Below are positions 18,803-21,720 of a stretch of DNA of 64,000 bases, piece by piece; within the stretch, counting starts at the first letter, position 1; each line of letters opens with the position of its first letter. The notes beneath the pieces were generated by a model. The model had not been told where the DNA came from, did not search any database, and saw nothing but the letters and a program-made list of their open reading frames with translations. This DNA comes from Calditerrivibrio sp. (GTDB lineage: Bacteria; Chrysiogenota; Deferribacteres; Deferribacterales; Calditerrivibrionaceae): positions 1 through 64,000 of the forward strand of contig JAOAHS010000026.1 of NCBI GenBank assembly GCA_026415135.1, read 5' to 3'. Both the position numbers and the translations under genes were made by a program.

Positions 18803-19192
18803 ATGAATAAAACATTGAATAGTTTTAGATTTTTTGGTTTAAAGTTAGAAACATTAGAACAAGCACACAAAATGTCTTTGCCAGCTGCTATTATGACTGG
18901 TATGATGGGGGTTGTATCTTTTGTACATTGTGTGACTGTTATACCTGATTTTCTATTTTTGGGTTTTCTTGATTTGGTGCTCTGGGGTGTTTTAGGTTTT
19001 GGGATATATAAAAATTCGAGGATTGCAGTGATAAATACATTTATTATGTATATATTAGGAGGAGCATATTTTAGATTGATCCCTATATGGCAAAGCAATA
19101 TTTTTGCAACAATTTATATCATCATATTAGTTTTTGCTTTATGGGGAACATTTTTATACAATAGGTTGCTTAAAGCTCAAAACAAAGGTTAG
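18803..19192 (+). CDS. small integral membrane protein, 129 residues
   Basis: The ATG at 18803 follows a GAGGTGG ribosome site. The frame is open further upstream, but that part overlaps the divergent pap gene and its promoter. The protein begins MNKTLNSFRFFGLKLE, has a short cytoplasmic start and then about four hydrophobic segments (roughly residues 28-48, 50-70, 75-95 and 100-122). I do not recognise a family. It converges on the CheW-CheZ gene with a four-base overlap. Confidence 0.7.
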   Translation: MNKTLNSFRFFGLKLETLEQAHKMSLPAAIMTGMMGVVSFVHCVTVIPDFLFLGFLDLVLWGVLGFGIYKNSRIAVINTFIMYILGGAYFRLIPIWQSNIFATIYIIILVFALWGTFLYNRLLKAQNKG

Positions 19193-20829
19193 TTTAGTCC
19201 AAAATCGCTTAAGAGCTTGTCTATATCCTCCTGGGAAGCTACTGGGCTATCTTCATCTGTGGATGATGTTACTACGTATCCAAGTATGGATCCGAGTCTT
19301 GCTCCTATTTCCTCTATGTTTTTTATCACCTTATTTATCTTTTGTTCTGTGATGTCCTGAAACTCCAAGGCTTGTAGTATATCGAAGCCAAGTTCCTCCG
19401 CTTTTTGAACAAGCTCTTCAATGTGCTCTATCTTTTTCATCGCAGAAGAGGTGTCCCTTGACTCAATAAATCTTTCCACATCCCTCAGGGCATCGCTTAT
19501 CTCGGTATATATAGAGGAAAGGTCATCTGAGTGTTGTAAAAGATTCGATGTGGCTTTTTCAGTGGTCTCATTTATAAATTCGAGGTTTTTGGCTACAGCT
19601 GGGACTTTTTCTGAGGAGTTTTCTATGTTATCTATCTTTTCTTTGGTGTTAAGGATCAATTTTATTATCTCACCTAACTCACCTTTTACATCTATGGAGA
19701 TATCTTTGGCTTCTCCATGTATGATTTTGCGGGCTATCTCTTTTATCTCTGAGATGGCATCAATCTCTATGCTTAATGTTTGGTGTTCGACTGACTCACT
19801 TTTTTTTTCTTCTTCTATGGCTGTTTCATTTTTTTTTTCCGCCTCTTTTTTCCTCCGGATCATCTCCTCGGTTTCTTTTTCCCTTTTAGCAAGTTCCATG
19901 GCTATGAGAGCATCAAGGTCGTTTTGATCTACATGAACAGCCTCGTGGTTTATCTTTTCCTCAGCTTGTTTGACTGCATCGTTTAGAATATCCTCTAAAC
20001 TCTCCTGCTGAACAGATTTTTTCTTTTTATTTATCTCCTCAGTTTCTTTTTCCCTTTTGGCAAGTTCCATAGCTATTAAAGCATCTATATCTTCAGTGGT
20101 ATCTGTAGTGTCAGTAAATTGTTTTTCTTCCTTGATCTCTTCGATAATAGTTTTAGTGGGACTTTTTAATTCCTGTTTAGATATTTGTTTTGTTTCTAAT
20201 GCATCTTTCTCTTCAATATCTTCCTCAAGGGAAGATGAAGTGGGTACATGGTATTCGGGCTCAAATCTTTCCCTTTCTGGTGTAAGTTCTGTTGTATTAC
20301 CAGAAGATCCACCTTTAGACCCAGTAAACTTTTTCTTAAGGTCACTTTCATAGTTTTTATCATCATAAATCAAGGAATCTATATCAAGAAGAATAATAAG
20401 CCTTTCATTGTATTTGCAAATACCCAGTATATACTCCTGTCCAATCGATCCCACTAAAGGTGGTGTTGGTTCGATGAGGGTTTTATTTATTCTGATTACC
20501 TGTGTAACTTCATCAACGACAAATCCTATATTTTCCTTTTCAAAACGAACGACAATTATTCTTGTTTTCTTATCAAAATCAGATTTATCAAGATTGAATC
20601 TTACCCTGAGATCAACCACAGGAATAACTTTACCCCTCAGGTTCATTACACCCATAATATAGTTTTCCGTTCTTGGTACGGATGTTATTTCAACAAGTCT
20701 AATTATCTCCTGAATCTTTAAAACATCTATGGCATACTCTTCTTCGCCGAGCTTAAAACCAACAAGTTGTAGAAGATCTTCGTCTTTTACTTCTTTTAAA
20801 TCTTCGATATAGACTTGTTGAGCGTTCAT
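19189..20829 (-). CDS. CheW-linker-CheZ fusion protein
   Basis: The 546-residue protein joins three parts. Residues about 15-155 are a CheW domain (GFKLGEEEYAIDVLKIQEII, GVMNLRGKVIPVVDLR). Residues about 160-400 are a charged linker with two near-identical copies of a D(I/L)DALIAMELAKRE repeat (247-265 and 304-322). Residues about 405-546 are CheZ-like, with FQDITEQ placing D492 and Q496 at the CheY-dephosphorylation positions (D143/Q147 in E. coli), and a C-terminal SQEDIDKLLSDFGLN like the CheY-binding peptide of CheZ. It would dock at receptor arrays and dephosphorylate CheY-P there. A GAGGTG site fixes the start. It follows a ParA-like ATPase gene by nine bases. Confidence 0.88.
   Translation of the reverse strand: MNAQQVYIEDLKEVKDEDLLQLVGFKLGEEEYAIDVLKIQEIIRLVEITSVPRTENYIMGVMNLRGKVIPVVDLRVRFNLDKSDFDKKTRIIVVRFEKENIGFVVDEVTQVIRINKTLIEPTPPLVGSIGQEYILGICKYNERLIILLDIDSLIYDDKNYESDLKKKFTGSKGGSSGNTTELTPERERFEPEYHVPTSSSLEEDIEEKDALETKQISKQELKSPTKTIIEEIKEEKQFTDTTDTTEDIDALIAMELAKREKETEEINKKKKSVQQESLEDILNDAVKQAEEKINHEAVHVDQNDLDALIAMELAKREKETEEMIRRKKEAEKKNETAIEEEKKSESVEHQTLSIEIDAISEIKEIARKIIHGEAKDISIDVKGELGEIIKLILNTKEKIDNIENSSEKVPAVAKNLEFINETTEKATSNLLQHSDDLSSIYTEISDALRDVERFIESRDTSSAMKKIEHIEELVQKAEELGFDILQALEFQDITEQKINKVIKNIEEIGARLGSILGYVVTSSTDEDSPVASQEDIDKLLSDFGLN
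19864..20091 (-). repeat. two copies of a 19-codon repeat inside the CheW-CheZ linker
   Basis: Codons 247-265 (20035-20091) and 304-322 (19864-19920) encode almost the same 19 residues, differing at one residue in the first few, with a 38-codon spacer. The DNA copies differ at several silent positions, so the duplication is not recent. Confidence 0.85.
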
Positions 20830-20838
20830 GTTACACCT

Positions 20839-21720
20839 CTAAAGTTTTTTCAAAATTAGGTCTCTGATTTCGTTAAAAAGCTCTCTATTGGTATCATTTG
20901 TATTTTCATAGTAAGGCTCAAGTTTTTTCACACTTTCACTTACATATAGATCATAAGGTAAAAAACCTAATTTTTCAACAGAAATTCTTAAATATTTTTT
21001 GGATACATTTTCGAAGCCATAAAAGATATTTAGTTCTTTTTTAAACTTTAGCATATTCAGTATAAGACCCACCTTATAGTTATCCACTATATTTATAACT
21101 TCTTCAGAAAGTCGTGGATCGATTTTGTTTAGCTCATTAAGGATATCATCGACCATCTGATAGTTCATACTTCTACTTCGTAATTTGTTGCAAATAGTTT
21201 CTAATCTTGGGTCTTTAAAAAGGTGTCTTTCTATCTTTCTATACAGCGCTATTTTCAAAAAACCGTATGAGTTTTCTATTGATGTGGGTTCACTGTTCAT
21301 AATAAGGATTTTTTTATCAGAGAAATTGAAAAAATCTATCATGTTGTAACTTGTCCCAGCACCTAAGTCCATAATTATGTATCTATAATTAGATCTCTTT
21401 AGGTTATTGAGGATCTTTAGTTTTTCAAAGTTGTTAATGTGGGCCATCCCTAATATATCACTGGAACCGCCTATAAAATCAACATTTGCAGGTGTTTTTA
21501 GGATGACATCTTCCATCCTAAAGTTTTCTTTTAAAAAATTATAGATACCTTTGCCCTGGGCTTTAAGACCTACAAAGGTATGAAGGTTTGCCCCACCTAG
21601 ATCTCCATCCACTAGGAGAATATCATCATAGACTCTTTTCATGGACATGGCAAGATTTGCGGCAAAAAAGCTTTTACCAACACCACCCTTGCCACTTGCC
21701 ACGGAAATAATCTCTGACAT
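20839..21720 (-). CDS. ParA/MinD/FlhG-family ATPase
   Basis: The 293-residue protein begins ISVASGKGGVGKSFFAANLA, the deviant Walker A of ParA/MinD ATPases, with VDGDLGGANLHTFVGL (switch I) and IIMDLGAGTSYN (Walker B). FlhG-type members place flagella, and ParC-type members place chemotaxis arrays at the pole. No clear C-terminal amphipathic membrane helix was identified. The next gene down is a CheW-CheZ fusion, so a role in chemotaxis or flagellar placement is the likeliest reading. Confidence 0.85.
   Translation of the reverse strand: MSEIISVASGKGGVGKSFFAANLAMSMKRVYDDILLVDGDLGGANLHTFVGLKAQGKGIYNFLKENFRMEDVILKTPANVDFIGGSSDILGMAHINNFEKLKILNNLKRSNYRYIIMDLGAGTSYNMIDFFNFSDKKILIMNSEPTSIENSYGFLKIALYRKIERHLFKDPRLETICNKLRSRSMNYQMVDDILNELNKIDPRLSEEVINIVDNYKVGLILNMLKFKKELNIFYGFENVSKKYLRISVEKLGFLPYDLYVSESVKKLEPYYENTNDTNRELFNEIRDLILKKL

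Follow-up and report, generated by a model that had tools for sequence, protein, structure and literature searches.

A CheW–CheZ fusion protein encoded beside an FlhG/MinD-like ATPase in Deferribacterota as a putative CheY-P phosphatase of the chemotaxis array

The window analysed here, a stretch of 64,000 nucleotides from a Calditerrivibrio sp. assembly (GCA_026415135.1, contig JAOAHS010000026.1, positions 1 to 64,000), carries on its reverse strand a gene in which a CheW domain, a charged linker and a CheZ-type region follow each other in one reading frame, preceded by a gene for an ATPase. The features of this locus are:

20839..21720, minus strand: FlhG/MinD-like ATPase of 293 aa, 9 bp upstream of the fusion gene (Pfam, NCBIfam)
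19189..20829, minus strand: cheW-cheZ fusion gene, 546 aa, ATG start (open reading frame and translation; phylum-wide orthologues)
20362..20769, minus strand: CheW domain, residues 21-156 (PF01584; 37% identity to E. coli CheW)
20032..20091, minus strand: linker repeat 1, residues 247-266, DIDALIAMELAKREKETEEI, in a predicted helix 246-271 (sequence; model pLDDT about 70-83)
19861..19920, minus strand: linker repeat 2, residues 304-323, DLDALIAMELAKREKETEEM, in a predicted helix 302-337 (sequence; model pLDDT about 77-85)
19192..19764, minus strand: CheZ domain region, residues 356-546 (PF04344, profile match to 1kmi_Z, AlphaFold2)
19342..19362, minus strand: phosphatase active-site motif FQDITEQ, residues 490-496 with D492 and Q496 (aligned to E. 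coli CheZ FQDLTGQ)
19192..19236, minus strand: C-terminal CheY-docking-type peptide SQEDIDKLLSDFGLN, residues 532-546 (likeness to the E. coli CheZ tail and to FliM of the same genome)

That CheW stands at the front and CheZ at the back of this protein, as the initial annotation had put forward, is borne out at both ends. The CheW domain is matched by PF01584 over positions 1-136 of 138 of the domain model (E 1.8e-41, cut-off passed), by the NCBIfam CheW model (E 9e-32) and, in a scan of the own genome, with an E value of 7.8e-43. It is identical to E. coli CheW at E38, G57, R62, G99, V105, V108 and G133, residues which we take to be the contacts of E. coli CheW with receptor and CheA (P5). 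A receiver domain (PF00072) was not matched in the fusion by Pfam. The CheZ part scores weakly as a single sequence, with PF04344 on residues 400-517 reaching E 5.7e-6 and 26.8 bits, short of the 30.7 that the curated cut-off demands, and the NCBIfam CheZ model reaching E 5e-4; phmmer with the CheZ tail region alone gave no relevant match in the PDB, so that a family profile was needed. A profile was therefore built from relatives of the fusion, and this profile settles the identity of the region as CheZ: hmmsearch against all PDB sequences returned E. coli CheZ (1kmi_Z) as top match (E 1.4e-9), in an alignment over 168 profile positions (27-194) that spans the hairpin, the FQDxTxQ motif and the C-terminal tail, and hhalign of the profile against E. 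coli CheZ gave E 1.1e-6.

The residue pair D492 and Q496, already picked out in the initial annotation, turns out to be invariant among 20 aligned orthologues and equally among 23 sequences of the CheZ region with the outgroup family included. The tail of the fusion, VASQEDIDKLLSDFGLN, is a near-copy of the E. coli CheZ tail, VASQDQVDDLLDSLGF, and also resembles the N-terminus of FliM from the same genome, MADILSQEEIDALLS; none of 5000 shuffles of the fusion tail reached the docking-tail score of the real one. For the CheZ region, AlphaFold2 predicts a hairpin (about 410-456 and 460-524), a short linker and a C-terminal helix (533-542) at a mean pLDDT of 64. A Foldseek search of the PDB with this moderate-confidence model returned 487 matches, mostly generic long-helix proteins and none below E 0.001, and in the full-length AlphaFold2 model, which was based on a shallow alignment, the CheW part is poorly modelled.

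The linker between CheW and CheZ is charged, acidic and roughly 200 residues long, and it holds a feature absent from the initial annotation, the two repeats, which share 18 of 20 residues and are conserved in the alignments (A1/A4). Further copies of the 20-residue repeat were not found in a search of the own genome. In the split genes of genus g13 the repeats go with the CheW half, and a CheZ-less protein of family f9 still has one, so that the repeats are more than a mere part of the phosphatase. Considered as extra FliM-like CheY-docking sites, they were compared with FliM N-termini against shuffled linkers and, with P values of only 0.03 and 0.10, retained as a weak lead. At two loci of family f9 (L113:4627-6081 and L114:4655-5776) the ATPase and the CheW-linker are kept and CheZ is gone, with the linker at L113 displaying an expanded DAST-type repeat.

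To delineate the distribution of the fusion, 51 genomes of the phylum were searched with CheZ, CheW and FliM profiles, the loci were read, and the 39 near-complete genomes were tallied by hand. The domain order noticed in this one stretch of DNA recurs in 28 of the 39 near-complete Deferribacterota genomes (counting G008, where a contig break had to be bridged by interpretation). Eight have CheW and CheZ as adjacent split genes; of these, G034 has the halves on different contigs and G018 has a broken CheZ frame; a CheW-linker protein without CheZ occurs in one (G005), and neither arrangement in two (G014 and G016), both 99% complete and both without FliM. The fusion is found in almost every flagellated member of the Deferribacterota. 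Its frame is unbroken in several families, including the single-contig assemblies G012, G022, G040 and G003, and the fusion family extends to the outgroup family f10 with proteins of 775-867 aa. A scan of genome contigs with the motif EFQDIT[EK]Q recovered 36 confirmed loci under Deferribacterota names, although divergent fusions elsewhere could escape this motif. Genomes of family f5 encode, among others, proteins of about 503-531 aa with several, up to three, tandem CheW domains (for example G017:C1:2887459-2888898). In Denitrovibrio BM701, the split-off CheZ gene (L128:5001-5573) contains in-frame stops, which might indicate a pseudogene or a sequence error of the metagenome-assembled genome; FliM of the same genome likewise shows a stop.

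Equally constant is the neighbouring gene. The ATPase, with FleN/FlhG as its closest solved relatives, is encoded directly upstream at all fusion and split loci that were read on that side, the outgroup family f10 included, and it is distinct from the FlhG of the flhF-flhG flagellar operon.

In a CheW tree built without the long-branched rows of f9, the domains of the fusion line, split genes and f10 included, are separated from solo CheW by one branch (87/95). In f5 and in f6, two separate families, the split genes are nested inside clades of fusions; genus g13 of family f7 adds a third lineage with split genes. Since the split genes are nested in this way and the fusion-line CheW domains fall on one side of the tree, the fusion is most simply considered ancestral and fission derived; the repeated fission implies that the covalent link of CheW and CheZ is dispensable. 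The proposal of the initial annotation that the phosphatase is held permanently inside the receptor array stands in part. A CheZ held at the array is reasonable, because the CheW contact residues are kept and the fusion occurs in a complete genome with a single CheA, but permanence is unsupported, given the free CheZ of the same genome, the solo CheW of most relatives and the splitting of the gene in several lineages. Fused and free CheZ from the same genomes share 25-30% identity. In the CheZ tree, the fused CheZ of f10 is placed near the solo CheZ of f10 on long branches (88/82), where the placement is ambiguous; the CheW tree, by contrast, has all fusion-line CheW on one side (87/95), so that the fused CheZ of f10 may stem from the same event as that of the other families or from a separate one.

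Which chemosensory system the fusion might serve can be approached from the gene content. The flagellar operon on contig C1 consists of flhF, flhG, a sigma-factor-like ORF, cheB, fliM, fliY, cheY, cheZ, cheA and a cheR-like ORF, several of these names having been assigned by reading the sequences; the free CheZ in its fliM-fliY-cheY-cheZ-cheA section is 210 aa long. Within this operon, CheA is the only product with a CheW domain. Elsewhere in the genome, CheW proteins are located in two separate che clusters, each with its own CheA, its own CheW and CheY or REC proteins, or are of the CheV type (CheW plus receiver). Most relatives also have a solo CheW. That of the genus-mates is about 152 aa long, and no direct orthologue of it was found in the 63-contig assembly, where a gap is possible; searched in the genome, this solo CheW retrieved the fusion as best match (E 7.8e-37, 45%). 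With an operon lacking cheW and a genome lacking the solo CheW of the genus-mates, the fusion is the best candidate for the coupling protein of the flagellar array. Its partner is most likely the flagellar CheA, as suggested by the missing operon cheW, the location of the other CheW proteins and the content of G040, where a single contig makes up the genome, CheA is present once, and the fusion and one solo CheW are accompanied only by proteins of CheA and CheV length. Fused or as a split pair, the two halves are also present in the single-CheA genomes G030 and G040.

On contig C6 of the own genome, a protein of 362 aa (L063:24-1112, plus strand) combines an MCPsignal domain (E 3e-26) with a CheZ-type FQDITRQ motif (CheZ E 3e-5), a second fused CheZ-like protein, in the neighbourhood of cheY, cheA, mcp, cheW, cheR and cheB. 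Besides three CheZ-type proteins there are two CheX-family matches (contigs C37 and C6), such that this 2 Mb genome encodes several putative CheY-P phosphatases. In family f10, a CheZ-like protein of 313 aa (L017:1399-2340, minus strand) with FQDISRQ has the FliM-like motif DQSDIDALLAQFED at its start and a similar one at its end.

The fusion can be compared with several known systems. E. coli CheZ (1kmi) and the fusion are alike in the FQDxTxQ motif, the catalytic Asp and Gln and the nearly identical sequence of the C-terminal docking tail, and a hairpin and a tail helix like those of E. coli CheZ are predicted for the fusion at moderate confidence; the CheZ of the fusion, however, forms the C-terminal part of a CheW protein. 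The CheZ of E. coli is recruited to the array by CheA-short via F97/W98 of the apical loop (PMC7750401); no obvious aromatic pair equivalent to F97/W98 is seen in the aligned loop of the fusion family. The initial annotation had regarded the fusion as an alternative to the CheA-short route, but an implied replacement of free CheZ does not hold, as free CheZ is encoded beside cheY and cheA in the same genome. With CheW (PF01584) the fusion shares a full domain including the presumed contact residues, to which it adds the linker and CheZ, on a branch of its own. CheV equally joins CheW to a second chemotaxis domain (PMC12691637), yet its partner is a receiver and not a phosphatase, and the genome has a separate CheV-type protein. 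The CheA-CheC/CheX fusions of Leptospirae (PMC10542144) likewise build a CheY phosphatase into a core component of the array; there, however, another phosphatase family is joined to the kinase, and here CheZ is joined to CheW. While CheW-receiver (CheV) and CheA-CheC/CheX fusions are thus already known, the CheW-CheZ variant appears to be new: no description of it was found in the open-access literature, although architecture lists of domain databases may already show one.

We consider it probable that the fusion is an array-embedded CheY-P phosphatase, for which incorporation into the array, catalysis, dimerisation of CheZ and an effect on signalling are inferred from homology. Through its CheW domain, the protein would take a place among receptors and CheA in the lattice of the flagellar chemotaxis system, as an ordinary CheW does, and the charged linker would tether the CheZ hairpin. 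The C-terminal SQEDIDKLL helix would capture CheY-P, and Gln496, together with Asp492, would serve to hydrolyse the phosphoryl group on CheY, so that CheY-P might be erased beside CheA, alongside a second, freely diffusing CheZ. The CheW and CheZ homology, the retained CheW contact residues, the invariant catalytic pair, the docking tail, the conservation across the phylum, the co-occurrence with FliM, the flagellar operon without a cheW, the single-CheA genome G040 and the rank of the fusion as best match among the CheW candidates for a partner of the flagellar CheA argue for such a function. Against it speak the CheZ score below the Pfam cut-off for the single sequence, the splitting of the gene in several lineages, and the structural models with their moderate confidence for CheZ, lack of a significant Foldseek match and poor CheW part; furthermore, with a free CheZ and CheX-family proteins present, the target of the fused CheZ may be a different one.

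Such a different target could be a non-flagellar CheY, or the fused CheZ could control the phosphate flow of another chemosensory cluster, as two further che clusters come with a CheA and with CheY or REC proteins of their own and the flagellar operon is already provided with a CheZ. This is unlikely, since single-CheA genomes keep the fusion or the split pair, the family tracks the presence of FliM and each of the other clusters is supplied with a CheW of its own. A catalytically dead CheZ that serves as a dimerisation module cross-linking CheW units is conceivable, as E. coli CheZ is a helical-hairpin dimer (PMC7750401) and arrays could gain rigidity from a CheW tail that dimerises, but it is quite improbable with D492, Q496 and the docking tail conserved family-wide, which is unexpected for a dead enzyme. 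Equally, two adjacent genes in eight genomes might raise the suspicion that a sequencing or annotation error had joined two genes; an artefact is, however, refuted by the continuous frame in 28 near-complete genomes from independent assemblies, single-contig ones included.

A different emphasis comes from Vibrio, where the CheW-like protein ParP and ParC, an ATPase of the ParA/MinD superfamily, position arrays (PMC5706961), the nearest known parallel, which supports positioning as a possible rival or added function. The fusion could accordingly be an adaptor that enters the array with its CheW domain, contacts the ATPase through its linker repeats or some other region and carries CheZ as cargo, with the ATPase positioning array and phosphatase at the pole; partly compatible with a phosphatase function, this can well be imagined and yet falls short of probable. 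In its favour are the invariable upstream position, at the loci read on that side, of an ATPase that is distinct from the operon FlhG, the ability of the CheW-like AIF domain of ParP to enter arrays with its N-terminus binding ParC (PMC5706961), and the conserved, predicted helical repeats that stay with CheW in the g13 splits and in the CheZ-less f9. On the other hand, the ATPase, a putative partner of the repeats, resembles FleN/FlhG/MinD more than plasmid-type ParA, and the adaptor part of ParP is N-terminal with an AIF domain nearer to CheA-P5 than to CheW, in contrast to the N-terminal and CheW-like domain of the fusion. Unlike ParP/ParC, the locus combines an adjacent gene for an FlhG/MinD-like ATPase, a putative partner, with a CheW protein that has a phosphatase attached. 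More tentatively still, and with some doubt, ATPase and CheW-linker-CheZ might form a conserved two-gene module that joins array assembly, positioning and signal termination, with the repeats as putative docking sites for the ATPase or CheY-P. If so, kinase output and its erasure would be locked to one location in the cell.

For the array-embedded phosphatase, the site where CheY-P is erased relative to its production matters as it shapes chemotactic signalling; in an E. coli-based model, the placement of CheZ is predicted to sharpen responses and to widen the detectable range (PMC1447658). The Deferribacterota would represent a whole phylum with the phosphatase on the coupling protein, with the split sister lineages and the CheZ-less CheW-linker lineage as natural controls, which renders the value of co-localisation experimentally testable.
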